Shown here piece by piece: positions 10,901 to 63,827 of a stretch of 64,000 bases of DNA. The notes beneath the pieces are model-generated. The model searched no databases. It had not been told where the DNA came from and worked only from the letters and a program-made list of their open reading frames with translations. Each line of letters starts with the position of its first letter. The first letter of the stretch is position 1. The DNA lies in the NCBI GenBank assembly GCA_949316235.1, contig OX438758.1, forward strand, positions 7,473,731 through 7,537,730, read 5' to 3'. A program made the translations under genes and the position numbers. The stretch comes from Oegoconia quadripuncta. Lineage: Eukaryota; Arthropoda; Insecta; Lepidoptera; Autostichidae.

Positions 10901-13900
10901 TATGACTACTTTTTTGCATTGTCACAATTTTTTATCTAGTTTTTAAAAGTGAAGAGTCTGTGTATAAGGACTGCAATATGCTCTTGATCTGATATTACAA
11001 TAAGGTTTGGCAGCACAACGTCCTGATTGGCGCAAGTTTGTGGATAGGAGAGTAAGCGATTTCGAAGAGCAGCGTAGAGCTGACCTCGACGCTAAACGCG
11101 ACGAGCTGAAAACCTGTCCACCCGCTGCCATTCATTATGATTACGTGCCCAGATTGCGCACGGGAGTTAACCGCAAAGATTGGCTATGTTAACCATCTTC
11201 GAGCGCACCAGAGCCAAACCGATTAGGAGTCGAAGTGGTTGCTATGGCCGAAATCAGTCGGAAGCCAGTCCCTCAAATAAGATGCGGTTTCCGGGTGTAC
11301 GCTACTACCTTCGGCCTTATCTTCACTTAACATCAGGTGTGATTGAGCTCAAGCGCTAACCCTTTGTTTTTTTTTATGCGTAACGGGTTGGTACTTGACT
11401 TCAATCACACTTGATGTTAAGTGAAGATGAGGTCAAAGGTGGTAGCGTACTGACCCGGAAACCCCCAACACATTTGGGGAACTGGTTATCTTATCTCTGA
11501 CAATCAGATCACAACAATGCTATTAACATTGCTGTTTGGCGGCAGATTTAGATAAGATGGTGGTAGCTAGACAGGTGGACATTTAAAATGCCCTACCACC
11601 AACCGAACCGAGTACTTAAACATTTACCTCGCTGGGGATCGAACCCGGTACCTACGAATCGTAAACCCAATGTTGTTTACATTGAGCCACGGAGGCGGTT
11701 GTGGATTAAAAAAAAAGCATTATTATTAGTGCAGTGTCGACAAATAAACGTAGCCCTCTAACACTTACCCGTGCTATTGGCAATGCCAGGTCCAATAACA
11801 AATACAGGTAGTGGATCATTTACGAAAGCAAATGCCACCAACCGGTCCAATTGCATGTTATTTATCTTGGGAATCACTGCAGTGACCACCAAGGACTCTG
11901 AAAAAAAAAAACATTTTCATGATTAAAGAAAACCTCCTTAACTCGTATTCGCAAATGTCTCTTGTTTTTATACAAGTAAATAAATATCCTTAGACATACA
12001 CACAGCGCCATCTAATTCCACAGTAAGCAACTCTAGGCTTGTGTTGTGGATACCAGATGGTTGATATATTAGGTCCTTACCTATGAAATTGGCGTTTTGT
12101 ATGAAGAATTTCATTGAGACTGTTTTCTCTATACAAAAACATTTTTGATTTTTTTTTGGGAACGGCAAATCCAAATTTTGCTAAACTTTTTTTTTGTTGT
12201 GTTGTGGATACCAGATGGCTTATCGTCTGCCTTTAATTGAAAACAACCGGGATCGACTTTAACCTGCCCTTAGAAACACGAAAACACTTGTTTGGTGTAG
12301 TGGTTAGCAACTCTGACCATTATACCAAAAGGTTGCGGGTTCGAGTCCCGCTAAGGGGCATATGTTTGTATGATGAATACGGACATGTGTACCCGAGTTA
12401 TGGATGTTTTCATTTATAATAAATATTTATATACAAAAAAAAATATGTATGTATGTAGTATATCAACCATCTGGTATCCACAACACAAGCCTGTAGTTGC
12501 TTACTGTGGAACTAGATTGCGATGTGTGTATGTCTAAGGATATTTATTTATTATTATTATTATTATTAATATATACTTACAGGTGTCACAAAAACCTTTA
12601 CAGGTTTATCCGAACACCGTACCTATGTCATCATCGGACACTCATGCATGACATAGTGACTTATATTATAGCTTATAAACAGTTATCCATTCATTTTATC
12701 CCCCTACACACAACTAGGGCTTACCCCACGTTGTTTCAAGCATTATATAATGTTTGGAACACCTAAACGCTAATGTTTGGGATATCGATGACCACCCCAT
12801 TTGGGATAAAGATCGTGACGTTTTAATAATAATTATCCATTTTATTGTCATGCAATGCAATGCCCATAGATAAATAAATACCCTACAGACTAACAACCAT
12901 AAACTTAGGAATCACAGGTCCTTTTGCATTTCTGGTATGATGTTCATCCGTCTTTCTTGGAATCGATGGAATACTAAACCCTTTCAGCTTGCCGACCTTA
13001 TGTATGTATGTATGTCAGATAGCCACTAGTATGCCACAATTCCATCAAGCCGCACTGGTCCGCATGGTGGATTATGTCCCATACCCTCTCCCAGGGAGAG
13101 AAGGCTGTGCCTCAACAGTGTATACAAGTCGTACTGGTCCGCATGATGGATTATGGCCCATACCCTCTCCCAGGGAGAGAAGGCTGTGCCTCAACAGTGT
13201 ATACAAGCCGCACTGGTCCGCATTGTGGATTATGGCCCATACCCTCTCCCAGGGAGAGAAGGCTGTGCCTCAACAGTGTATACAAGCCGCACTGGTCCGC
13301 ATTGTGGATTATGGCCCATACCCTCTCCCAGGGAGAGAAGGCTGTGCCTCAACAGTGTATACAAGCCGCACTGGTCCGCATTGTGGATTATGTCCCATAC
13401 CCTCTCCCAGGGAGAGAAGGCTGTGCCGCAACAGTGTATACAAGCCGCACTGGTCCGCATTGTGGATTATGGCCCATACCCTCTCCCAGGGAGAGAAGGC
13501 TGTGCCGCAACAGTGTATACAAGCCGCACTGGTCCGCATTGTGGATTATGTCCCATACCCTCTCCCAGGGAGAGAAGGCTGTGCCTCAACAGTGTATACA
13601 AGCCGCACTGGTCCGCATTGTGGATTATGGACCATACCCTCTCCCAGGGAGAGAAGGCTGTGCCTCAACAGTGCATACAAGTCGTACTGGTCCGCATGAT
13701 GGATTATGGCCCATACCCTCTCCCAGGGAGAGAAGGCTGTGGCTCAACAATGTATACAAGCCGCACTGGTCCGCATGGTGTATTATGGCCCATACCCCCT
13801 CCCAGGGAGAGAAGGCTGTGCCTCAACAGCGTATATTAGAAAACACACGTTACGTTATTATTTTGATGTAAAACTCATACTTAAAAATATTTACAACTAT

Positions 13901-17282: not shown

Positions 17283-17672
17283 AGGTATCTATTTAATTAG
17301 ACCGTACAATTAACCTTTTATATATACAGGGCGTCCCAAAGTTATGGGACATGAAGGGGAAGTACCTTAAATATCGTAGATAGTGAATTTTGCTCAAAGA
17401 AGACTTTATGTTATTTTTAAAAGTTAGTAATTCTGCATTCATAGATTTTCTAAAAATTATTTGCTTCGGCTGGGAATCGAACCGACTCAAATGTGAAAAA
17501 AAAAACACCCTACTTTTATGATGCCAATCGAAAGAATAGCTAAAAAATAATAACTCTGCCTAAGTAACATAGTATTTTAAAAGAAAGGAACAACGTGAAA
17601 TTAATCATTTTAATCAAATAAAAAACATACATGAAACTGCCGTAGTCAATTAAGTAGGTATTTTTTTGTAAA

Positions 17673-18734
17673 TTAATTAATTAAATGCTCAAAATGTGAT
17701 CCCTCTTGTCTTACGCAAATCGCCAATCTTTTAATGAGCCCGCTGCCTGTTGATTTTCTAATCATTTTATGGTGAACACTCGATGTGATATGGCACAATT
17801 CTGTTTGCAACTCGCCTACGTTCTCGTATCGCTTTTTGTATAGCATATCTTTCACGTATCCCCAAAAGAAGAAATCTAATGGTGTGAGGTCCGGGGATCT
17901 GGCCGGCCATCTAATCGGTCCATTTGTACCAATCCATGTAGGAAAACATTCATTTAGAAAATCTGCTGCTCTCCGACTATTATGAGCCGGAGCTCCATCT
18001 TGTTGGAAAATTAAGTTTTCTTGCTCCGCCGCGGAATGGTTTCTTATCTTATCCCTTAAAATTTGAAGTATTCCTAAATACTTTTCTGTGTTCAAGGTTC
18101 CTTGGTAAAAATGGATTAAGAAAACCCGGTTTTTTAAAAGTCCGCACCAACAGTTGAGTGAAAAACGCACTTGGTTATTAGTTTCAGTCACTCGTAGGGG
18201 ATTTTCTTTAGACCAAATACGATTATTGTTGCGGTTATACATACCGTTATTGCTAAAGTTAGATTCGTCTGTCCAAATAATATTATCCAAAAAATTTGGA
18301 TCTTCGAGCAATCGTGCCTGGATATCAAGACAGAAATTTTTTCTCCTTTCTGTATCGCCCGGAAGTAATTTTTGAACCAATCGTCCTTCAACATAACTCT
18401 TAAAACCGTGTTTTTTTAATACACGGTGTATTTTACTTTTTGAAACTCCAATTTCATGTTCTCCTTCTCTCACCGATGCTTTCGGAAAAGCCGAAAAGTA
18501 AATTAAAATACCAAGTTCTTCGTCGTTGATCGTATGGTTTTCTTGCTGTGGTTCTCTTGGGCGTTTATCGAAACGTCCCAGAGTTTTCAAATTGTTCACA
18601 AGCCTTTTCAAAACTTTACGAGACGGTATTTGTCTATCAGGATATTTTACGCCATACCACCGCAAACTTCTAGAGATATCTTTATCGTTCAAAAAATATG
18701 CTTCCATTAGATCAAAACTTACTTGATATGCCAT
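17673..18734 (-). CDS. DDE transposase of copy 1 (DD41D-like group, spacing 40)
   Basis: 353 residues, intact. The N-terminal 125 residues look like a helix-turn-helix DNA-binding region (GVSKSKIHRVLKKHG at about 96-110). The catalytic DDE domain shows D156 in WTDESNF, D246 in FQQDGAPAH and D287 in SPDLTPLDFF. Forty residues separate the last two, close to the DD41D group of the Tc1/mariner superfamily but one short of it. It would cut and paste its own element at TA sites. The protein is identical to that of copy 2 as far as I can compare. All three acidic residues are present, so activity is possible. Confidence 0.88.
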   Translation of the reverse strand: MAYQVSFDLMEAYFLNDKDISRSLRWYGVKYPDRQIPSRKVLKRLVNNLKTLGRFDKRPREPQQENHTINDEELGILIYFSAFPKASVREGEHEIGVSKSKIHRVLKKHGFKSYVEGRLVQKLLPGDTERRKNFCLDIQARLLEDPNFLDNIIWTDESNFSNNGMYNRNNNRIWSKENPLRVTETNNQVRFSLNCWCGLLKNRVFLIHFYQGTLNTEKYLGILQILRDKIRNHSAAEQENLIFQQDGAPAHNSRRAADFLNECFPTWIGTNGPIRWPARSPDLTPLDFFFWGYVKDMLYKKRYENVGELQTELCHITSSVHHKMIRKSTGSGLIKRLAICVRQEGSHFEHLIN

Positions 18735-19178
18735 GTTCGCAATAAATTAACACAATAACACTTGTGTAAGTGAATTGAGACTAAACAGATCAATATCCGA
18801 AAAACAAACGCTCGCACATACTGTTCCATTTTCAAATTTAAGAACAACATTTAAAAATATCACTTCTTTTTAAAATATCTTAAAAAGTATGCATTCAAAC
18901 AAACGCTGTCATAAACTGTTCCATTTTCAAATTATAAATTATTTATTTTTGTTTTTAATTTGCCTTCTGTCTAGCTTACAGAGGACGTATTGAAATACAA
19001 GTTTTATCATTTCATCTACACGTGCACTTATAATAAGGAAAACTATGTTAGTACCTATTTTATGAAGTGGGTACTTATTTACGAATAATCAATGCTATCT
19101 TTGGAATGATAATATCGCTACTTTTCGAACGTCGTCGGCAATAAATAACTTTCTTGAAATTTGACTCAATCATTTTAT
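18735..19178. other. Non-coding interior of transposon copy 1
   Basis: AT-rich segment between the transposase start and the right inverted repeat, presumably containing the transposase promoter. CTGTTCCATTTTCAAATT occurs twice, near 18820 and 18916. Confidence 0.5.
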
Positions 19179-19448
19179 GTTGTTCCTTTCTTTTAAAATA
19201 CTATGTTACTTAGGCAGAGTTATTATTTTTTAGCTATTCTTTCGATTGGCATCATAAAAGTAGGGTGTTTTTTTTTTCACATTTAAGTCGGTTCGATTCC
19301 CAGCCGAAGCAAGTAATTTTTAGAAAATCTATGAATGCAGAATTACTAACTTTTAAAAATAACATAAAGTCTTCTTTGAGCAAAATTCACTATCTACAAT
19401 ATTTAAGGTACTTCCCCTTCATGTCCCATAACTTTGGGACGCCCTGTA

Positions 19449-20285
19449 TACCTCTAAGTAGGTAATGGTCATTAAATTCGAGTGAATAATTAGTCATAAT
19501 TTATGTTTATCACGATACTGAATTATAGTCACATACATATCAGTGATTAGTGGAAACTCTCGTCCCCATTGCTGGGGTACTACAGTACTACAGTAAGGCC
19601 TTCAGTTACTAAGAGGTGGGCCATAATCCACCACGTACCTACGCAGGCCCATTATATATAGCTACATATCTAGTCACTGTTCTGACGAGGTCTTTAAATT
19701 TCTTCTCAGATTAATAATTTTCTCAGGTACCTAAAGTGGTAATGAAAGCGTATTCAGTGTCCCATAAATGATATTTAAACTTTGCTTAGTCTAAACATAG
19801 TCACATCGGCCAATATTTGTCGGTCAAAGTGATATTAGTCAGTGGCGATACCTTGATATAAGCCCAAAAGCCCGGCATGCATTTGCCTTAATAAAATAGG
19901 TATTCAATCAAGAATATCAACTTCAAATTTTATTGATCTTTACTCTGTACTGAAATTGCATATAATCGTCCATATTGAACAGAAAGGAGGCAACAAGGTG
20001 TATTTAACTTCATTAACTGCATAAAAACTACAATACATTCATCCAACATATCTCGTTCTTGCCATACTCTGAAACCCTAGGCACGCCACTGATATTGTTT
20101 TATTGTCTTGTCGTTCAAATCGCTCAAAGATTCGTCGGGCCAAATAACCTGTCGTACGAATGTAGTGTCGGTAAAAGTTGTGTCGCTCTTACGTCGGGGA
20201 ACTGTTTGTAGAACAACAGTTCCGGAATCATCATTTAATATGCTTACTAGATTCTTGGGTTATTACTAGATTAAGGATAAAAATA
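19449..20285. other. No gene recognised
   Basis: Spacer between transposon copy 1 and the Helitron-like fragments. 19560-19660 contains weak traces of a repeat resembling SINE-C (ccattgctggggtactac). No exon found. Confidence 0.4.
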
Positions 20286-41400: not shown

Positions 41401-44400
41401 AATATATAAAGGAAGAAGCTGACTGACTGACTGACTGACTGACTGACATATCAACGCACAGGCCAAACCGCTGGGTCTAGAGTTTCCAAATTTGGCACGT
41501 AGGTTCCTTACGAGGTCTAGGGGAGCACTAAGAGAGGATTTTTCAAAATTCACCCTTTAAGGGGGTGAAACAGGGGTGGGAAGTTTGTATGAAGAAACAG
41601 TATAACTTGGACATTTCGACTATTTTCGACTCGAAACTTCGCAAGAGTACTCCTAGAAACAAATAAGCTAATACGTGTTTTGAGATTTTTCGAAAAACCC
41701 CCCCCTGGATTGTGAAATGGGGGTTAAAACCGTAAAATCGATATTGGTGTCGTTATTTAGGTTTTATGAGATGTTGATTTTGAAAATGACATTTATTTTA
41801 AGTTAACCCTCTAGGGTTGAGATAGGGGTGGGGGTTGATACCAAAAAAGTCAATATTGGTGTCATTATTTAGGTTTTTTGGGACGTTGATTACGAAAATG
41901 CTATTTGTTTTGAAGCTAACCCCTTGGGGTTAGAGAATGCGATAAGGGTGAGTTGAGATTTTTCGAAAAACAGCCCCCTGGGGTGTGAAATGGGGGTTGA
42001 AACCATAAAATCGATATTGGTGTCGTTATTTAGGTTTTTTGGGATGTTGATTATGAAAATGACATTTATTTTAAGCCAACCCCTTACGGGTTGCGATAGT
42101 GGTAGGGGTTGAAATCACAAATTCAAATTGGTGTCGAAGTCGAAGAGTCAAAGTCGAAGAGTCAATGTCGAAGATTGAAACTCGAAATTCAAAGTCGAAG
42201 GCTCAAAGTCGAAGGCTCAAATTCGAAGGCACAAAGTCGAAGGCTCAAAGTCGAAGGCTCAAAAGTCGAAGGCTCAAAGTCGAAGACTCAAAGTCGAAGG
42301 CTCAAAGTCAAAGGCTCAAAGACGAAGGCTCAAATTCGAAGGCTCGAAGTCGAAGGCTGAAAGTCGAAGGCTCAAAGTCGAAAGCTCAAAGTCGAAGGCT
42401 CAAAGTCGAAGGCTCAAAATCGAAGGCTCAAAGACGAAGGCTCAAAGTCGAAGGCTCAAAGTCGAAGACTCATAGTCGAAGACTCATAGTCGAAGACTCA
42501 TAGTCGAAGACTCAAAGTCGAAAAGTAAAATTCATAGTCAAAGTCATGTCAAAGTCATAGTCAAAATCATAGTCAAAGTCATAGTCAAAGTCATAGTCAA
42601 AGTCATAGTCAAAGTCATAGTCAAAGTCATAGTCAAAGTCATAGTCAAAGTCATAGTCAAAGTCATAGTCAAAGTCATAGTCAAAGTCATAGTCAAAGTC
42701 ATAGTCAAAGTCATAGTCAAAGTCATAGTCAAAGTCATAGTCAAAGTCATAGTCAAAGTCATAGTCAAAGTCATAGTCAAAGTCATAGTCAAAGTCATAG
42801 TCAAAGTCATAGTCAAAGTCATAGTCAAAGTCATAGTCAAAGTCATAGTCAAAGTCATAGTCAAAGTCATAGTCAAAGTCATAGTCAAAGTCATAGTCAA
42901 AGTCATAGTCAAAGTCATAGTCAAAGTCATAGTCAAAGTCATAGTCAAAGTCATAGTCAAAGTCATAGTCAAAGTCATAGTCAAAGTCATAGTCAAAGTC
43001 ATAGTCAAAGTCATAGTCAAAGTCATAGTCAAAGTCATAGTCAAAGTCATAGTCAAAGTCATAGTCAAAGTCATAGTCATAGTCAAAGTCATAGTCAAAG
43101 TCATAGTCAAAGTCATAGTCAAAGTCATAGTCAAAGTCATAGTCAAAGTCATAGTCAAAGTCAAAGTCGTAGTCAATGTCGAGTCGAAGTCATAGTCAAA
43201 GTCATAGTCTAAGTTTTAGTCAAAGTCATAGTCATAGTCAAAGGGGTGAATAGAGTTTCCAAATTTGGCACGTAGGTTCCTTACGAGGTCTAGGGGAGCA
43301 CTAAGAAAGGATTTTTCAAAATTCACCCTTTAAGGGGGTGAAACAGGGGTGGGAAGTTTGTATAAAGAAACAGTATAACTTGGACATTTCGACTATTTTC
43401 GACTCGAAACTTCGCAAGAGGACTCCTAGGAACAAATAAGCTAATACGTGTTTTGAGATTTATCGATAAACAACCCCCTGGGTTGTGAAATGGTGGTTAA
43501 AACCATAAAATCGATATTGGTGTCGTTATTTAGGTTTTATGGGATCTTGATTATGAAAATGACATTTATTTTAAGTTAACCCTCTAGGGTTGAGATAGGG
43601 GTGGGGGTTGCTACCAAAAATGTCTATATTGGACAACCCCCTGGGGTGTGAAATGGGGGTTAAAACCATATAATCGATGATGGTGTCGTTATTTAGATTT
43701 TATGGGATGTTGATTATGAATATGACATTTATTTTAAGTTAACCCTCTAGGGTTGAGATAGGGGTGGGGGTTGATACCAAAAAAGTCAATATTGGTGTCA
43801 TTATTTAGGTTTTTTGGGACGTTGATTACGAAAATGCCATTTGTTTTGAAGCTAACCCCTTGGGGTTAGAGAATGAGATAAGGGTGAGTTGAGATTTTTC
43901 GAAAAACAGCCCCCTGGGGTGTGTAATGGGGGTTGAAACCATAAAATCGATATTGGTGTCGTTATTTAGGTTTTTTGGGATGTTGATTATGAAAATGACA
44001 TTTATTTTAAGCCCACCCTCTAGGGGTGAGATAGGGGCGGGTGATGATACCAAAAAAGTCTATATTGGTGTCGTTATTTAGGTTTTTTGGGATGTTGATT
44101 ATGAAAATGACATTTATTTTAAGCCCACCCTCTAGGGGTGAGATAGGGGCGGGGATGATACCAAAAAAGTCTATATTGGTGTCGTTATTTAGGTTTTTTG
44201 GGACGTTGATTACGAAAATGACATTTATTTTGAAGCTAACCCCTTATGGGTTGCGATAGTGGTAGGGGTTGAAATCACAAATTCAAATTGGTGTCGAAGT
44301 CGAAGAGTCAAAGTCGAAGAGTCAATGTCGAAGATTCAAATTCGAAATTCAAAGTCGAAGGCTCAAAGTCGAAGGCTCAAAGTCGAAGACTCAAAGTCGA

Positions 44401-47400
44401 AGGCTCAAAGTCAAAGGCTCAAAGACGAAGGCTCAAATTCGAAGGCTCAAAGTCGAAGGCTGAAAGTCGAAGGCTCAAAGTCGAAGACTCAAAGTCGAAG
44501 AATCAAAGTCGAAAGCTCAAAGTCGAAGGCTCAAAACCGAAGGCTCAAAATCGAAGGCTCAAAGACGAAGGCTCAAAGTCGAAGACTCAAAGTCGAAAAG
44601 TAAAATTCATAGTCAAAGTCATAGTCAAAATCACAGTCAAAGTCATAGTCAAAGTCATAGTCATAGGCAAAGTCGTAGTCATAGGCAAAGTCATAGTCAA
44701 AGTCATAGTCGAAGACAAGAATCTAGCCATGATGTGGTAGCTTTAGCGGGTTTAGTCAAGAATAACTGTGATACATTAACAGATGAACAAAAGTTAGTAT
44801 ACGAACAAATAATAACTAGTGCAAATGCAAGTGAGGGCCAAATTTTCTTTTTAGATGCTCCAGGAGGAACCGGCAAAACGTACCTATTAAATTTGATTTT
44901 GGGAAAAATAAGGGTCACACGTGATATTGCATTAGCTGTGGCTTCTTCAGGAATTGCCGCAACACTTTTGCAAGGCGGTCGCACCGCGCACTCGACCCTA
45001 AAGTTGCCACTTAACTTAACAAATGTAGAAACTCCATTATGTAATATTTCAAAACAGAGCAAATTTGCAGAAGTATTAAGAAGAACTAAAATTATTGTCT
45101 GGGATGAAAGTACTATGGCCCATAAAAAAGGTATAGAAGGTTTGAATAGATCGCTGCAAGACATACGGAGCAATAAAAGATTGATGGGTGGTTTGACTGT
45201 ATGGCTGGCGGGAGACTTTCGTCAAACTCTACCAGTAGTTCCAAGGGGAACACGTGCCGATGAGATAAAAGCGTGTCTTAAAAGATTATCATTGTGGTCC
45301 TCGGTCAAAATATTAAAATTAACAAAAAATATGAGAGTCCACCTTGGAGGTAATGTTTCCGCCGGCCAATTTTCAGACCTTTTGCTAAAACTGGGTAACG
45401 GTGATTACCCCGAAAAAGATGGCATGATATCTATCCCTGCCGGTCTGTGTACTACAGACACAACAGTTGAAAACCTGATTTCAAAAATTTATCTAGACAT
45501 TGCTCTCATTATAGAAAAATCAATAGAGTGGTTATGCGAAAGAGCTATACTGACCCCAAAGAACGACCAAGCAGCGGTCATCAATGACATATTATTGAAC
45601 TCTTTTGAAGGACAACAGATTATTCATAGCTCAATAGATACCGTGGTAAACACCGACGATGCCGTTTATTATCCCGTAGAATTTTTGAACACTTTGAACC
45701 CACCGGGTATGCCATATCACAGACTTTTACTACGTGTGGGTGCACCTGTTATGTCATTGAGAAATTTAAAGCCACCCAAACTTTGTAACGGTACTAGGTT
45801 GCAAGTCAAGGTTTTGCATCGGAACGTAGTAGAGGCCACTATTTTAACAGGTCCTGCTCAGGGAGAAACAGTGTTTGTACCGCGTATTCCATTAATACCA
45901 AATGATCTTCCCTTTGAATTCAAAAGGCTTCAGTTTCCACTAAAGGTCTGTTTTGCCATGACAATAAATAAGTCGCAGGGGCAAACTCTCAAATTCGCCG
46001 GAGTAGACCTACGACAGGACTGTTTCTCTCACGGTCAGTTCTATGTGGCATGCTCCCGTGTAAGTTCACCTCAAAGTTTGGTTCTATTGCTACCACCTTC
46101 AAACATGGCAAAGAATGTTGTTTATAAGGAAGTACTTTAATAAATATAAACCAGAATTTTTCAAAAAGGTCTTTTAATGGTTCCCTGTCTTAATTCATTT
46201 ACCTGGCAAAACACCAACATTGTTCCACATACCTGTTATCTGCCCAGGGTCTTTTCCTGTTTGAGATAAACTCTACGTGGTAATTTTTCTGCTGAATGTA
46301 TTCCCGTGGGAAAGTAATAAAGTGTTGATTCATGTAGTCTACGCGGACGAAGTCGCGGGCAGCTGCTAGTATTTTATATTCGTATGTATTGAAATATGTA
46401 CTTATTTATGTATTTATGTACTTATTAGTATGTAGTTATATTTATATTCAGTTAGGTTTTCTTATCTATCATATTTATTCATTTCTTTAGATGTCCATTG
46501 TGCACGTCTTATATCTGCCTGTTCCAGTCATATCTCTCTTTCGTAGGTCTGCTGGAAGAAATTTCATTGTAGAAATAAGCAGAACCTATTGTGTCGTCTC
46601 TATTATGTTGTATCTGTATGTTTTTTTTTCTTTTGTGCAATAAATGATAAAAAAAAGAACACCTGCCGTAGGTCATTCTATAGACCGACGTCCATTCCAA
46701 TTCATAAATACTTACTAAAACTCTTCAACTCTCGTGCTATTCATCCCATATACCAACCCAGTGGTAGGCGATGCAGTTACGTTTACATGTGTCAGATACA
46801 CTCTGTTTTCACTTCTAAACAAAGGATCAGGTATAGGACCATTCTTGATAATGCATTTGGAATGCTTGGCAAAGAACTGGCGGATGCAGTTCAGGTCGTA
46901 GACGAAGCAGGGGCGCTCTATAGCAGCGTCATCGTCTGAAAATTGTGTGCTTGTACGAGTATCTTCTGTTGACTTGAGTGAAACATTTACATAGGTACAT
47001 GGAATTGATTAGAAAATAGAGAACCAAATGGGAAAAATATATTCTAATGGCCAATACGTTGCAATACTTCAATGCAATTGTTCTTTATGTTCCGAGTGCA
47101 TCATCAAATGCCCCTTGACTAGCACCTCAGCTCTGCCACATTATACAAAGTGACCTGATTATAGTAGTTATTCCGATCTCCCAATAGGTACACCATCATA
47201 GCTGGTCCCGATTCATCAAGATGTGATTAGTATTAAATATAACCTAATTGGGTTTTTATTGTATTTTTAGTACTGTTTTTATTAATATATTTTTGATGGA
47301 CACTGGGTATTGCTAGATCTGATTTAAAGTATTGAAATATATAGGCCGGTGCATACATATAATTAAAAAAAATATAATCATATTGAAGTAATTATACACA

Positions 47401-55238: not shown

Positions 55239-58200
55239 TTACAATACTTTCAAACCAAAATCGCAAATATTGTATTGTATATAAGTTGGAATAAAGAAGG
55301 GAGACTCTGCCAGCATCTGCTCTTGAACTAATGTGGGGAGATCCATGTACACCTCAGTCATACCTTGTGTTACAACGGGATCTGTAAATAAATGTCGAAA
55401 ATGGATAAATTGAATATTAATAATGATTTACTTAATTAGGTATAAAACTTTATTGAGTGAGATACAATTAACGCTTTATTCGATGATAGTTTAAAAAAAA
55501 ACAATTAAACTACCTATGTGAATACCTTCTATGTCACTTACTTAACATGCCCTATTTTTTTTCTTGCGGTAAAAAAACTCATCCGGTATACAGGGCGTCC
55601 CAAAGTTATGGGACATGAAGGGGAAGTACCTTAAATATCGTAGATAGTGAATTTTGCTCAAAGAAGACTTTATGTTATTTTTAAAAGTTAGTAATTCTGC
55701 ATTCATAGATTTTCTAAAAATTATTTGCTTCGGCTGGGAATCGAACCGACTCAAATGTGAAAAAAAAAAACACCCTACTTTTATGATGCCAATCGAAAGA
55801 ATAGCTAAAAAATAATAACTCTGCCTAAGTAACATAGTATTTTAAAAGAAAGGAACAACGTGAAATTAATCATTTTAATCAAATAAAAAACATACATGAA
55901 ACTGCCGTAGTCCATTAAGTAGGTATTTTTTTGTAAATTAATTAATTAAATGCTCAAAATGTGATCCCTCTTGTCTTACGCAAATCGCCAATCTTTTAAT
56001 GAGCCCGCTGCCTGTTGATTTTCTAATCATTTTATGGTGAACACTCGATGTGATATGGCACAATTCTGTTTGCAACTCGCCTACGTTCTCGTATCGCTTT
56101 TTGTATAGCATATCTTTCACGTATCCCCAAAAGAAGAAATCTAATGGTGTGAGGTCCGGGGATCTGGCCGGCCATCTAATCGGTCCATTTGTACCAATCC
56201 ATGTAGGAAAACATTCATTTAGAAAATCTGCTGCTCTCCGACTATTATGAGCCGGAGCTCCATCTTGTTGGAAAATTAAGTTTTCTTGCTCCGCCGCGGA
56301 ATGGTTTCTTATCTTATCCCTTAAAATTTGAAGTATTCCTAAATACTTTTCTGTGTTCAAGGTTCCTTGGTAAAAATGGATTAAGAAAACCCGGTTTTTT
56401 AAAAGTCCGCACCAACAGTTGAGTGAAAAACGCACTTGGTTATTAGTTTCAGTCACTCGTAGGGGATTTTCTTTAGACCAAATACGATTATTGTTGCGGT
56501 TATACATACCGTTATTGCTAAAGTTAGATTCGTCTGTCCAAATAATATTATCCAAAAAATTTGGATCTTCGAGCAATCGTGCCTGGATATCAAGACAGAA
56601 ATTTTTTCTCCTTTCTGTATCGCCCGGAAGTAATTTTTGAACCAATCGTCCTTCAACATAACTCTTAAAACCGTGTTTTTTTAATACACGGTGTATTTTA
56701 CTTTTTGAAACTCCAATTTCATGTTCTCCTTCTCTCACCGATGCTTTCGGAAAAGCCGAAAAGTAAATTAAAATACCAAGTTCTTCGTCGTTGATCGTAT
56801 GGTTTTCTTGCTGTGGTTCTCTTGGGCGTTTATCGAAACGTCCCAGAGTTTTCAAATTGTTCACAAGCCTTTTCAAAACTTTACGAGACGGTATTTGTCT
56901 ATCAGGATATTTTACGCCATACCACCGCAAACTTCTAGAGATATCTTTATCGTTCAAAAAATATGCTTCCATTAGATCAAAACTTACTTGATATGCCATG
57001 TTCGCAATAAATTAACACAATAACACTTGTGTAAGTGAATTGAGACTAAACAGATCAATATCCGAAAAACAAACGCTCGCACATACTGTTCCATTTTCAA
57101 ATTTAAGAACAACATTTAAAAATATCACTTCTTTTTAAAATATCTTAAAAAGTATGCATTCAAACAAACGCTGTCATAAACTGTTCCATTTTCAAATTAT
57201 AAATTATTTATTTTTGTTTTTAATTTGCCTTCTGTCTAGCTTACAGAGGACGTATTGAAATACAAGTTTTATCATTTCATCTACACGTGCACTTATAATA
57301 AGGAAAACTATGTTAGTACCTATTTTATGAAGTGGGTACTTATTTACGAATAATCAATGCTATCTTTGGAATGATAATATCGCTACTTTTCGAACGTCGT
57401 CGGCAATAAATAACTTTCTTGAAATTTGACTCAATCATTTTATGTTGTTCCTTTCTTTTAAAATACTATGTTACTTAGGCAGAGTTATTATTTTTTAGCT
57501 ATTCTTTCGATTGGCATCATAAAAGTAGGGTGTTTTTTTTTTCACATTTAAGTCGGTTCGATTCCCAGCCGAAGCAAGTAATTTTTAGAAAATCTATGAA
57601 TGCAGAATTACTAACTTTTATAAATAACATAAAGTCTTCTTTGAGCAAAATTCACTATCTACAATATTTAAGGTACTTCCCCTTCATGTCCCATAACTTT
57701 GGGACGCCCTGTATATAGATAACTATCTTTTCGTCCACAGCTTCGGCTGTATCAATAACTTTATCGCTGATAAGTTTAATTTGTTTACTCTTCCCTTCAC
57801 TATCCTATGTTTTAATCCTTAAATGTTCTACCTATTATACCAAATTTCATCCAAATCCGTTTCGCCGTGATGAGCAACAAACAAACATCCAAAATTTCGC
57901 AATTATAATTGTAACATTAATATTTATTGGTATAATATTATACATACCTGGGTTGTTCACAATTATAATTGTAACATTAATATTTATTGGTATAATATTA
58001 TACATACCTGGGTTGTTCGCAATTATAATTGTAACATTAATATTTATTGGTATAATATTATACATACCTGGGTTGTTCGCAATTATAATTGTAACATTAA
58101 TATTTATTGGTATAATATTATACATACCTGGGTTGTTCGCAACTTCAGGTCCAAATATTGTCACTGGGGTGGCGTCGTCGACATACGCTGTCACCTCAGC

Positions 58201-61200
58201 CTTGTCCAGCTGTATGTCGTTGATGTTGGGAATTATTGCCGTGAACGATATCGATCCTGTGCAATATAGGTATAGAGTTTAATTTCCGTTAAAGCATCTC
58301 TACACTTCATTGGTGATATTGCTTTGACAAATTGAGAAGTCTACATGTTCTATTGAAAAACTCAGCTCAACTAGATTGCTCAACTAGGACATAGTTTGTG
58401 TTACTGAATATTTTATGATTTATAGCTCAACTATTTTCGCTCAACTTAGTTGATCAGTAGTTCATCTAGTCTTAAAATTAAACATATAACCTACCGCTCA
58501 ACTGCTTTTGAGGCACTGGCCACTTATAATTTATTTTCACTTGTTTCCTCTAGTCTCATTAGGATTGTTGATACTTGTATGGTCAGTGACTGTAGACAAT
58601 CACTATGACATAATATGCTACCTACTTACATCTAGAACGAATATTCTACGTCATTCTCCAATCCCAAGACATGTGTGGTGAATTTAACCATCTGAATCAA
58701 TGAAAGATCCCCCAGACTGATATTTTTCACGATTCATTAGGTATGCTTAGGAGAAGACTTACTCAATTTTCGCAAGCAACATTTATAGTTTTCATAGAAT
58801 GTTGAATAACTCTTAAACTACAGTGGCACGGTTTTTCTATGTCTATGTCAGCACAGTATTTTGACATTGACAACATAGCTGAATTTCACTGTGTGAATTT
58901 TAGCATCATGAAAGTGCTTCGGCGGCTGCCCCCGGCTTCCTTGAGGGTCCTTGGAAGTGAGATGAGGCAAGAGCGATTGCTTCATTACGTTAATATGATA
59001 TTATTATGCCAACTTGATCCATTAAGTATAAAAATTATAAAATGTAATATTGATATTTACTGTATGTCAATTCTGCGTAACCCACGGCCGTTATAGGCTC
59101 TCTGCTATTCCTGTAAAAGCTCCAGTACGTATTAGGCGAAAGGATCCTTATTGGTCTGACTTGGATGGTAAAGACGATTTTATTTGAAGCTTTGTTAATA
59201 CTGCAAACAGAAAAAAAGTATATGAAAAAGTTCTTCGAAATGTAAGCGGGTAGCGGGAGAGGAACAGACACTAAGGCCCGTATTAATAAACCATTCTCAA
59301 GATTGAGAACAGTGTTGTGACTGGTCTCAAGTAAACGTGTTGATTAATAAACCTAACTTGAGACCTGAAACGCGCGGCCTACTCAAGCAGTACTCACTTG
59401 AGAGTTTCACGTATTAATAAACGGAACTCAAGACTATCATTCATTCGCCGCTGAGGTGAATACTTGAAAAGCGCCCTCAGCTGAGTAGACCTCAAGATTG
59501 GTTTATAAATTAGCACGGACCTTGAGATAGCGTCAACTTCTTAAGACGCATCTCGGGTGATACAGCCTCAAGACTTGTATTGAGATTGGTTTATTATTAC
59601 GGGCCTAAATGACTGTATACACTTCTTTCAATCCTTTTGGTCGAACAGCAACAAAAAAAAAGTCCCGAGCATATACAAGGACAAGGCTATTTATACATCC
59701 TGATGACATTTAGCAATGTATATAGTTGGTTAACCGATTAGATCGCAATGATATAAAATAACAGTACATTAATAGCGTTATAAAAATATAATTCAATCAT
59801 TAATCATAAATATGAATTGAATCTTCATAAGAATAAATCAATGATTTACACAGGAACAAATCGAACGGACTACAAATTGGTAATCAATATCTTAATTACT
59901 ATAAATTGAAAATTTTGAAAACCCTCGAGAAAACAAGCGATTAGAACAAAACGGCTGATTTTGGTAATATATATCTGAGAACAAACGCTAGAAACTCCAA
60001 ATCGGTTTACCCGTTTAAGAGCTACGGTGCCACAGACAGACACACACTGCACAGCGATCAAACTTAAAACACCCTTCTTTTTGCGTCGGAGGTTAATAAA
60101 ACAATGGTTATTGACAAAACAAAGGAACCTATTGATATAATTCATTATGGCATGGGATGCTAATATAACTTCAACTGTAACAGAATCGTTATTGGCAATT
60201 AAAGAATATTAAAATATTACATGTTCTTATACACTATAGGCTAACCTTGCCACCAATCAAACATGTATAAAATGATATTAAAACCAATGGTGAAAGCAGA
60301 CGTAACCATAACTGACAATTTATAATGAAGCCTTGTCTAACATTACCTACTGTCTGACAGCAGACTTAAGTAGATGGTATTAGCAATCACTGTAGCAACC
60401 AAAATCATAATGTCCATGTCATTCAAATAATTAATAAATAAACAAATAATAATATAAATAAATAAATATTTCGGACACTTACATTAATCATCTAGTCCCA
60501 AACTAAGCAAAGCTTGTACTGTGGATACTAGATAACGGATAAACATACATAAATATTTATATAAACATCCATGACTAGGGAATAACTGTTCGTATTCATC
60601 ATACAAACATTGACCCCTCGCGGGATTCGAACCCGCAACCGTTGGTTTCGCTGACAGGGTCACTATCCACTACACCAATCGGTCGTCAAACCATATACGT
60701 TGCTGCTCCTACGTTAATCTTCATGCTAAGATCTAATAGACTATTGCTTTATTCGTAAATACTTACTAAAACTCTTCAACTCTCGTATTATTCATCCCAT
60801 ATATCAATAAATTGCTAGGCGATACAGTTGCGTTTATTTGTGGCAGATACACTTTGTTTTGACTTCTAAATAAAGGATCAGGTATCGGACCATTCCTGAT
60901 CCTGCATGAGGAATGTTTGGCAAAGAACTGGCGGATGCAGTTCAGATCGTAGACGAAGCAGGGGCGCTCAATAACAGCGTCATCGTCTGAAAATTGTGTG
61001 CTTGTTAGTACGAAAAGCTTTGGTTGACTTGAATGAAACATTACTTAGGTACTTCGAACTGATTAGAATTGAGGGAACAGTGTGGGATTAATATAATCGA
61101 AATAATAAAACAAGTGACTTCAGTGGTTTGTTCTTCATGCATCATCAAATACCCATTGGCTGACATCAGCTTCTTAACTTTTTTTTTATGCACAACGGGT

Positions 61201-61659
61201 TGGTACTTGACCTCAATCACACCTGATGTTAAGAGAAGATGAGGTCGAAGGTGGAAGCGTACTGACCCGAAAACCCCAACACATTTGGGGGACTGGCTAT
61301 CTTATCTATGACAACCGGAACACAACAATGATATTAACATTGCTGCTTGGCGGGAGATTTATATAAGATGGTGGTAGCTAGCCAGGTAGATTAATTATGT
61401 GTAAAGACCTAGTTATTTTGTAAAGGGCCTATTACACCATTCTAAATTCAGAGACTAATTATGGTCTCCGAATTTAGGATGGTGTAATCGAACATCTCAA
61501 TTGTACATTTGCAGAGATTTCAAAGTAATAATATAGATACCAACCTGGGTTACCGACATATTCGTACCGTCTTATCTTGTTTCCATTATCCTTTGAATAT
61601 ACAGCCTCTGCCACAGATAAACATCCAACGACCAACACAAATAAGCAGACGTCCTTCAT
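55239..61659 (-). CDS. Fibrohexamerin/P25-like secreted protein, gene F (5 exons, repeated splice donors)
   Basis: Exons: 61545-61659, 60767-60986, 59061-59200, 58128-58256, 55239-55381, all GT-AG; 747 nt, 248 residues. Signal peptide MKDVCLFVLVVGCLSVAEA. Cys at 48, 55 and 66 in exon 2 (RPC-x4-D-x2-CI, then SSC) and Cys241 in CDFGLKVL; sequons at N90 and N104. Directly below exon 4, a 60-bp unit containing the exon end and its donor is present four times (57901-58140). The unit is in frame and stop-free, so use of a distal donor would add 20, 40 or 60 residues before exon 5. Intron 4 also holds transposon copy 2. Family role as for the others: a secreted silk-type glycoprotein by pattern. Confidence 0.8.
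55591..57711 (-). mobile_element. Tc1/mariner-superfamily transposon with long TIRs, copy 2
   Basis: 2,121 bp, flanked by TA, same ends as copy 1 and same orientation. It differs by one extra A in the left A-run, C instead of A at 55913, and T instead of A at 57621. It is inserted in intron 4 of gene F, in the same direction as the gene. Confidence 0.92.
55938..56999 (-). CDS. DDE transposase of copy 2 (spacing 40)
   Basis: 353 residues, same sequence as the transposase at 17673-18734 by reading: HTH-like N-terminal part, then D156, D246 and D287 with 40 residues between the last two. No stop or frameshift. Being sense-oriented inside an intron of gene F, it could be read through with the host transcript. 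Confidence 0.88.
   Translation of the reverse strand: MAYQVSFDLMEAYFLNDKDISRSLRWYGVKYPDRQIPSRKVLKRLVNNLKTLGRFDKRPREPQQENHTINDEELGILIYFSAFPKASVREGEHEIGVSKSKIHRVLKKHGFKSYVEGRLVQKLLPGDTERRKNFCLDIQARLLEDPNFLDNIIWTDESNFSNNGMYNRNNNRIWSKENPLRVTETNNQVRFSLNCWCGLLKNRVFLIHFYQGTLNTEKYLGILQILRDKIRNHSAAEQENLIFQQDGAPAHNSRRAADFLNECFPTWIGTNGPIRWPARSPDLTPLDFFFWGYVKDMLYKKRYENVGELQTELCHITSSVHHKMIRKSTGSGLIKRLAICVRQEGSHFEHLIN
57718..57905 (-). mobile_element. Helitron-like fragment adjoining the 60-bp repeat
   Basis: Inverted 3' terminus (CTATCTTTTCGTCCACAGC), the aaatttcatccaaatccgt block, then gcaacaaacaaacatccaaa and TTTCGCAATTATAATT, where the 60-bp repeat begins. Confidence 0.55.
57901..58140. repeat. Four 60-bp tandem units duplicating the exon 4 splice donor of gene F
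   Basis: Units 57901-57960, 57961-58020, 58021-58080 and 58081-58140 differ by a single base (A at 57959). Each ends with the last bases of exon 4 (minus: GCGAACAACCCAG) plus the donor GTATGT, at plus positions 57942-57947, 58002-58007, 58062-58067 and 58122-58127. Confidence 0.95.
58260..59055. other. Intron 3 of gene F, no element recognised
   Basis: Contains several copies of GCTCAACTA-like words near 58360-58500, otherwise unremarkable. Confidence 0.35.
59275..59605. mobile_element. Harbinger-like MITE, copy 2
   Basis: 331 bp, ends GGCCCGTATTAATAAACC and inverse, flanked on both sides by TAA, a clean 3-bp target duplication. Opposite orientation to copy 1 at 14448-14779. It lies in intron 2 of gene F. 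Confidence 0.75.
59610..60455. other. Intron 2 of gene F, nothing recognised
   Basis: AT-rich, no domain-bearing frame and no repeat that I can name. Confidence 0.35.
60462..60688 (-). mobile_element. Variant SINE-B in intron 2 of gene F
   Basis: Tail block and attcatcatacaaacat body; head with GGTTCGAATCCCGC (minus) near 60620-60635. It has an extra stretch between boxes B and A compared with other SINE-B copies, which resembles a tRNA with a longer variable region. Confidence 0.6.
61178..61388 (-). mobile_element. SINE-A, headless, in intron 1 of gene F
   Basis: T-rich start, tail and body blocks up to gtggtagctagccaggtaga; tRNA-like head absent. Confidence 0.65.
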
Positions 61660-62540: not shown

Positions 62541-63827
62541 AAAAGTATCGGGAATATGTCAATAAAAAGACCCGCGTAAAAGAGGTCGTTCTAATTTTTT
62601 TACTGCATGTTGGTAGCACTGTACTGATTTAGCGCGCAAAATTTGAGCGGGATCTGTCATTTAATTTGTTTTAAACTACACTTTTTGTTGGTCATAGTTT
62701 TGAGTCCTCGGCGATTTTTACAATGGAAAATATTGTTGAACAAAGAGTGTGCCTTAAATTTTGTGTTTCAAATGATATTTCATGTGGTGAATCACTAAAA
62801 ATGTTGCGAAATACCTACGGCGAATCGTGTATATCGAAAACAAGGGCTTATGAATGGTATAAGGCTTTTAAAGAAGGCCGAGAAGTAGTAGTAGACTTGC
62901 CTCGTTCTGGTAGACCTTCAACCGCTACGACCAAAGAAAACATCGACAGAATCAAGAAGCTAGTGCTCGAAAATCGACGTATGAGTCTGAGAGAGTTGGC
63001 TAGTGAGGTGAACATATCTTTTAAGTCCGTCCACAACATTCTCATTGACATTTTAGGCATGAAACGCGTCGCCGCTCGACTAGTTCCAAAAGAGCTCAAT
63101 TTTGTTCAAAAAGCGCAGCGAAAGCATGTCGCTGAAGACATGGTTTCCCGAGCTTCTACGGATCCGACCTTTATGAAACGTATAATAACTGGCGACGAGA
63201 CATGGGTTTATGAGTACGACATGCAAACAAGCCAACAGTCTTCAGAATGGCGTCTCGAAAACGAGCCGAAACCCAAAAAACCGCGGCAAAGTCGCTCCAA
63301 AATCAAGGTGATGCTGACAGTTTTTTTTGACTACCGTGGTGTGGTTCACTCCGAATTCCTTCCAGAGGGAGAAACAGTGAATAAAGAATATTATTTAGGC
63401 GTCATGAAGCGTTTGCGTGAGAGTATCCGCCGAAAACGTCCAGATTTGTGGCAACACAACTCATGGATGCTGCACCATGATAATGCACCATCACACACAG
63501 CCATTATAGTGAAAGAGTTTTTAGCGAAAAATTCAACAAAAGTTCTCGACCAAGCACCTGATATGGCTCCGTCTGACTTTTTTTTATTTCCCAAGTTAAA
63601 ATTACCACTTCGAGGAAAACGTTTTGAGTCGATAGAAGCCATAAAAGAAAATTCGCTGAATGAGCTAAAGGCCATACCGCAAATAGCCTATGAAAAATGT
63701 ATGGAAGACTGGGTGAAGCGGTGGAGATGTTGTATTGCAAGCGGTGGGGCCTACTTTGAAGGCGATAAAATAAATTTAGATGAATAATTTGTATTTTTTG
63801 TTTTATTGACAAATTCCCGATACTTAG
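62541..63827 (+). mobile_element. mariner element
   Basis: 1,287 bp between TA dinucleotides (62539-62540 and 63828-63829). The ends form an inverted repeat of about 27 bp with core AGTATCGGGAAT and tgtcaataaaa; the left end differs from the right at three positions, including the outermost two. One transposase gene. Confidence 0.9.
62723..63787 (+). CDS. mariner transposase with shortened DD31D spacing
   Basis: 354 residues without stops. N-terminal helix-turn-helix region (SRASTDPTF precedes the catalytic part; DLPRSGRPS linker near 59-67). Catalytic residues: D158 in TGDETWVY, D253 in HHDNAPSHT, D285 in MAPSDFFLFP. Mariner transposases have 34 residues between the last two acids; here there are 31, because three residues just before PD-x-AP in the usual YSPDLAP motif are missing, consistent with a 9-bp in-frame deletion. 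The protein would be made but is probably catalytically impaired. RLVPKEL stands where WVPHEL-type motifs occur. Confidence 0.88.
   Translation: MENIVEQRVCLKFCVSNDISCGESLKMLRNTYGESCISKTRAYEWYKAFKEGREVVVDLPRSGRPSTATTKENIDRIKKLVLENRRMSLRELASEVNISFKSVHNILIDILGMKRVAARLVPKELNFVQKAQRKHVAEDMVSRASTDPTFMKRIITGDETWVYEYDMQTSQQSSEWRLENEPKPKKPRQSRSKIKVMLTVFFDYRGVVHSEFLPEGETVNKEYYLGVMKRLRESIRRKRPDLWQHNSWMLHHDNAPSHTAIIVKEFLAKNSTKVLDQAPDMAPSDFFLFPKLKLPLRGKRFESIEAIKENSLNELKAIPQIAYEKCMEDWVKRWRCCIASGGAYFEGDKINLDE

Follow-up and report, generated by a model that had tools for sequence, protein, structure and literature searches.

The locus considered here raises the question of whether four copies of one splice donor at the end of a coding exon give rise to a graded series of protein isoforms, or whether a recent minisatellite has copied a donor whose original is still the main one. 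In the window (the whole stretch of 64,000 nucleotides analyzed, from Oegoconia quadripuncta, to which all coordinates refer), the end of exon 4 of a gene named F lies, on the minus strand, in an array of four 60-bp units at 57899–58138 (57896–58142 with the 4 and 3 matching edge bases). TRF returned a 60-bp period with 4.1 copies, 98% matches, and a score of 487 over 57896–58142, and the units follow one another in register at 58138–58079, 58078–58019, 58018–57959, and 57958–57899, which bears out the description in an earlier note of a 60-bp unit carrying the exon end and its GTATGT donor four times. Units 1, 2, and 4 were identical, and unit 3 differed by a single C to T change, that is, by one base in 240. 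Each unit contains CAG/GTATGT, and the GTATGT of donors 1 to 4 occupies 58122–58127, 58062–58067, 58002–58007, and 57942–57947, respectively (minus strand). A 29-base core spanning the donor occurred four times in the window with up to three mismatches, compared with no occurrence in 100 shuffles, and within the window was confined to the array. When two units (120 bases) were used as a query, a single place in the genome was matched (622,649,726 bases in 45 contigs; this search skipped very common words and gives minimum counts), and an exact scan of a collection of prokaryote genomes with the 60-mer gave no matches. The exon–intron context is the same at all four donors, as had been proposed, over approximately 15 nt on the upstream side and 48 nt or more on the downstream side, but not further upstream, where donor 1 stands behind exon 4 (50% GC), whereas donors 2–4 stand behind intron-like, AT-rich sequence (15% GC).

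Gene F was modeled on the minus strand with five exons of 115, 220, 140, 129, and 143 bp (coding sequence including the stop codon), located at 61545–61659, 60767–60986, 59061–59200, 58128–58256 (exon 4 up to donor 1), and 55239–55381 (including the stop codon), which together would encode 248 residues. Exon 1 contains the ATG, encodes an N terminus that is signal-like by eye, and ends at the donor CAG/GTTGGT; the Fibroin_P25 domain starts in exon 2. When introns beginning at 58127, 58067, 58007, or 57947 were spliced to 55381, the predicted proteins comprised 248, 268, 288, and 308 residues, each with one terminal stop, and the coordinates, junctions, and lengths given previously for an in-frame series free of internal stops thus held in the spliced models. 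The peptide of one unit, GMYNIIPININVTIIIANNP, consists of 20 residues, including seven Ile and five Asn, in agreement with the Ile- and Asn-rich extension already described. Each added unit also contributes one NVT N-glycosylation sequon, giving totals of two, three, four, and five in the four predicted forms. The 248-residue form matched the Pfam family Fibroin_P25 (PF07294) with 66 bits against a cut-off of 25, residues 44–244 corresponding to profile positions 1–195 of 196, and this match continues through the exon 4/5 junction. In the 308-residue form, the match stops at residue 192 (profile position 148), shortly before the insert starts at residue 202. Judged by the profile score, gene F belongs to the fibrohexamerin-like silk genes, and dN/dS values of 0.33, 0.35, and 0.16 relative to paralogs E, D, and C, respectively, point to constraint. 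When a composite query of exons 1, 2, 4, and 5 was run against a protein database, 107 candidates were returned, none at E ≤ 0.001, and a PDB sequence search gave no matches at E ≤ 1.

Gene F belongs to a cluster of 12 fibrohexamerin-like paralogs arranged in tandem on the minus strand, from approximately 7949–61659 onward to approximately 110800 (window coordinates). Six of them lie in the window and six within 47 kb past its high-coordinate edge; no further paralog was matched in the remainder of 100 kb on either side (tblastn, E 0.05, eight exon queries). The paralogs were named A to L in order of increasing coordinate; for A and B, no exon 1 was found. The 3' end of exon 4 falls on the homologous base in all 12, with CAG/GT in 11 and CGG/GT in A, and its length is 129 bp in nine paralogs, including F, and 126 bp in the other three, so that the variation does not exceed one codon. 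The six proteins of the window align without a gap across the exon 4/5 junction, and none of the 12 paralogs has an insert like the extra units of F at the position of donor 1. Within 400 nt downstream of exon 4, serial copies of the gene's own donor were found in F only; the same pattern scan detected one unrelated donor-like 9-mer in L, at +295. Since this exon end is shared by all paralogs, serial copies are restricted to F, and the junction is ungapped, donor 1 is the ancestral donor and donors 2–4 are additions in F. It should be noted that competing donors as such are not specific to F, and this idea was rejected: in a score-based scan of the same 400 nt with a small matrix, six of the 11 other paralogs (B, C, E, G, I, and J) had a site scoring at least as high as their own donor. 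Good 9-mers downstream are thus common in these paralogs, and their presence alone is no sign of use. In introns 4 of E (+15), G (+36), and J (+54), such sites are in frame, stop-free, and score above the gene's own donor with the small matrix, and they could provide small alternative extensions. Exon 2 of paralog J (about 93764–93982, window coordinates) contains an in-frame stop, and this paralog may be a pseudogene.

A unit that is a multiple of three without stops, as correctly stated before, proved to be weak evidence. A third of all lengths keep the frame; a given frame was open in 31% of 60-mers drawn at random from the window and in 13% of shuffled versions of the unit's intronic part, and read-through beyond the donor was open for at least 20 codons in five of the 11 other paralogs. 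Consequently, the combination of an open unit and a preserved frame is unremarkable and near chance, and openness as a sign of selection was rejected on these random, shuffle, and paralog controls. Moreover, unit-to-unit identity was as high at intronic positions as at exonic ones, so that no trace of coding selection on the units is seen.

All four donors scored 10.97, a value reached by 11 of the 3539 GTs on the strand, four of which are these donors; among the other 21 donors in the six genes of the window, on which alone the matrix was trained, they ranked above 19, level with one, and below one. Donor 1 lies at a step in GC content, from 0.50 in exon 4 to 0.15 in the intronic part of the unit. 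That it is the one donor at this exon–intron step and behind the coding exon, together with a family without any such insert, suggests that donor 1 is likely to dominate over donors 2–4, with minor longer isoforms being possible. Predicted RNA structure distinguishes the donors in another way. The exonic motif GGACCTG (58146–58152, minus strand) is located approximately 18 nt before donor 1 and outside the duplicated unit, and its ACCUG is predicted to pair with the CAGGU of donor 1 in a hairpin of −8.7 kcal/mol, compared with 0.0, 0.0, and −1.1 kcal/mol for donors 2–4 (the last not over the donor). The local probability that the entire donor 9-mer is open was 0.0009 for donor 1 versus 0.022, 0.022, and 0.037 for donors 2–4 in 80-nt windows, and 0.0005 versus 0.0014, 0.019, and 0.014 in 150-nt windows. 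Because of this exonic pairing, donor 1 is the least open of the four in the predicted structure.

GGACCTG is invariant across the six window paralogs. Among 13 fourfold codons (Gly, Pro, Ala, Thr, and Val) of exons 3–5 encoding the same residue in all six, the third base was kept in two, which are neighbors and both fall in GGACCTG. In the 12 paralogs, these two third bases were kept in 11 and 12, respectively, and the one exception, an A to G change in K, permits a G–U pair; of ten such fourfold codons, three reach 11 of 12, one of which spans the donor itself. A hairpin of at least five pairs over the donor was predicted in 10 of the 12 paralogs, with four pairs in J and none there in I. 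As a post hoc observation, GGACCTG could represent a family-wide donor hairpin or an enhancer, and it bears on the array since the unit starts 3' of the motif, which leaves donors 2–4 without it close by. In mammals, SRSF1 and enhancers located between competing donors are reported to favor the intron-proximal donor, and hnRNP A1 and silencers the intron-distal one (PMC5585400). The SRSF1/enhancer rule would favor the longer forms, which is a point against the dominance of donor 1.

A comparable arrangement is known from the minisatellite of human IFI6, whose 12-bp unit is present in about 26 copies and keeps the reading frame; in gene F, the unit is 60 bp in four copies, and the two genes are unrelated. 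The IFI6 (G1P3, 6-16) minisatellite is reportedly the subject of work by Turri, Cuin, and Porter from 1995 (Nucleic Acids Res 23:1854). In both cases, the tandem repeat spans an exon end, supplies a donor with each unit, and has a frame-keeping unit length. In IFI6, two of the repeat units further downstream are reported to act as donors, so that three mRNA species arise (PMC4526556); the use of several donors is thus reported there, whereas donors 2–4 of gene F are candidates. The arrangement, which had been called unusual, therefore has a direct precedent, multiple donors provided by a minisatellite having already been described for IFI6. A literature search for in-frame isoforms from VNTR splice donors at an exon–intron boundary gave no match. 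What is new is the gene, the 60-bp unit, and the one NVT sequon per added unit. Gene F shares with the lepidopteran fibrohexamerin/fibroin P25 and fibrohexamerin-like silk proteins a match to nearly the whole Fibroin_P25 profile and differs in its serial donor copies, which are absent in the 11 other paralogs. An expansion of fibrohexamerin-like genes is reported in the moth Pseudoips prasinana (PMC8347419) and one P25 copy in Pyraloidea species (PMC9745057), the accessible portions of both sources making no mention of serial donors; N-linked glycans of the fibrohexamerin family are named in the title of a reference.

If all four donors were appreciably used, the gene would produce a graded series of silk proteins of 248, 268, 288, and 308 residues, each step adding one NVT sequon along with a hydrophobic run of Ile and Asn. 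Four identical strong donors, a preserved frame, the absence of stops, the regular rise in predicted sequon count, and the IFI6 precedent speak for this reading, and the four lengths predicted for it in the earlier note are right. The series is nevertheless considered unlikely: donor 1 is ancestral, the insert would fall inside the domain, at a position where neither the 12 paralogs nor the Pfam match has one, the openness of the unit is near chance, and its intronic bases are as well conserved between units as its exonic ones. A stronger version, in which array copy number would tune a working fibrohexamerin-like ladder by 20 hydrophobic residues and one sequon per step, with the isoform ratio set by the donor 1 hairpin, seems more doubtful still. 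The same hairpin could mask donor 1 so far that splicing mainly uses donor 4 (57947), the intron-proximal one, with the 308-residue protein as the main product. The folding energies and the low accessibility of the donor 1 9-mer in both window sizes agree with such masking, but the 10 paralogs that share the predicted hairpin at the homologous donor indicate that it apparently does not block splicing, and the 180 nt that would be added are AT-rich and intron-like; dominance of donor 4 is accordingly rated as improbable.

Two further readings concern the array itself. Near-perfect tandem repeats can be mis-sized, and three of the four units are identical, so that the real array might be shorter than assembled or variable between alleles. 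This we regard as very improbable for an array of just 247 bp, with a substitution of its own in unit 3, in an assembly of 623 Mb in 45 contigs. The units might also be 60-nt mini-introns, through recursive splicing, exitrons, or intron gain by tandem duplication at AGGT, with the same mRNA restored: every unit holds CCCAG/GTATGT, and the excision of any whole unit is neutral for the product. Intron gain by tandem duplication is described in PMC4974935 and PMC3629103, the former with a model in which the duplication carries CAG/GT. Cases associated with this route are ATP2A1, potato RdRp, and fission yeast. The gene F array is similar in that its duplication carries CAG/GT, but the duplicated segment already spans the donor and its copies are poor acceptors by matrix score, hence alternative donors are expected and not a new intron. 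CCCAG scored −14.2 as an acceptor, the 24 acceptors of the matrix ranged from 6.2 to 16.8, and 2646 of the 3335 AGs on the strand scored at least as high; by matrix score, the usable acceptor on which intron gain depends was not found in the duplicate. Recursive or exitron splicing between units was rejected on this score, the lowest modeled acceptor reaching 6.2, and the mini-intron reading as a whole is hardly credible.

The best overall explanation, held with moderate confidence, is a recent minisatellite that copied a splice donor while donor 1 remained the main one. The 3' end of exon 4 together with the first 48 or so bases of intron 4 (60 bp in all) would have been duplicated, probably between matches of TTGCGAA, a 7-bp sequence present at both presumed breakpoints (the 4 + 3 extra matching bases bounding the array). 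Expansion to four copies would then have carried the donor along. Donor 1 would still yield the family-length protein of 248 residues, and donors 2–4 would give at most minor in-frame isoforms longer by 20, 40, or 60 residues; the in-frame length of the unit would have made the expansion tolerable and is not evidence for a built isoform ladder. With one base differing in 240, compared with a dS of 0.33 to 0.37 between F and its nearest paralogs, the array is young compared with the genes. In paralog D, the opening 31 nt of intron 4 showed a 77% match to the F unit (E 0.008), with no match in the intron of E; the duplicated intronic part thus derives, at least in part, from local sequence. Membership of the unit in a dispersed element was judged unlikely, given the single genomic place of the two-unit query and the partial likeness to the D intron. 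The 14-bp palindrome GTATAATATTATAC recurs in every unit and may have promoted slippage. The predicted RNA fold of exon 4 and the array was better than that of each of 100 shuffles (z −3.64), the units being paired with one another; such a strong fold is expected from repeated palindromes.

Use of one or of several gene F donors would be informative either way, although donors supplied by a minisatellite are not a new idea. If donors 2–4 are used, the locus is a natural competition assay among four identical 5' splice sites spaced 60 nt apart, which differ only in position and upstream sequence and would thus test the position rules of donor choice in insects. If donor 1 alone is used, the exon context ahead of it outweighs three perfect copies further downstream. 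Were the ladder true, array copy number would alter protein length and glycan number while leaving the ancestral coding bases untouched.

Other repetitive sequences occur in the vicinity. Intron 4 of gene F contains a DNA transposon (55587–57715) with terminal inverted repeats (TIRs) of approximately 280 bp and an ORF of 354 aa at 55944–57005 (minus strand), in which DDE_3 scored just below its cut-off and DUF4817 just above. A second copy at 17323–19450 is 99.86% identical over 2129 bp, which suggests that this transposon moved recently. Other tandem arrays in the window are located at 13046–13835 (79-bp unit, 10 copies), 42137–43240, and 44297–44718 (14-bp and 12-bp units), and by coordinate comparison they do not overlap the modeled exon ends of the six window genes. 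Upstream of gene F, at about 62700–63800, there is a sequence recognized by eye that we take to be a mariner-like transposase.
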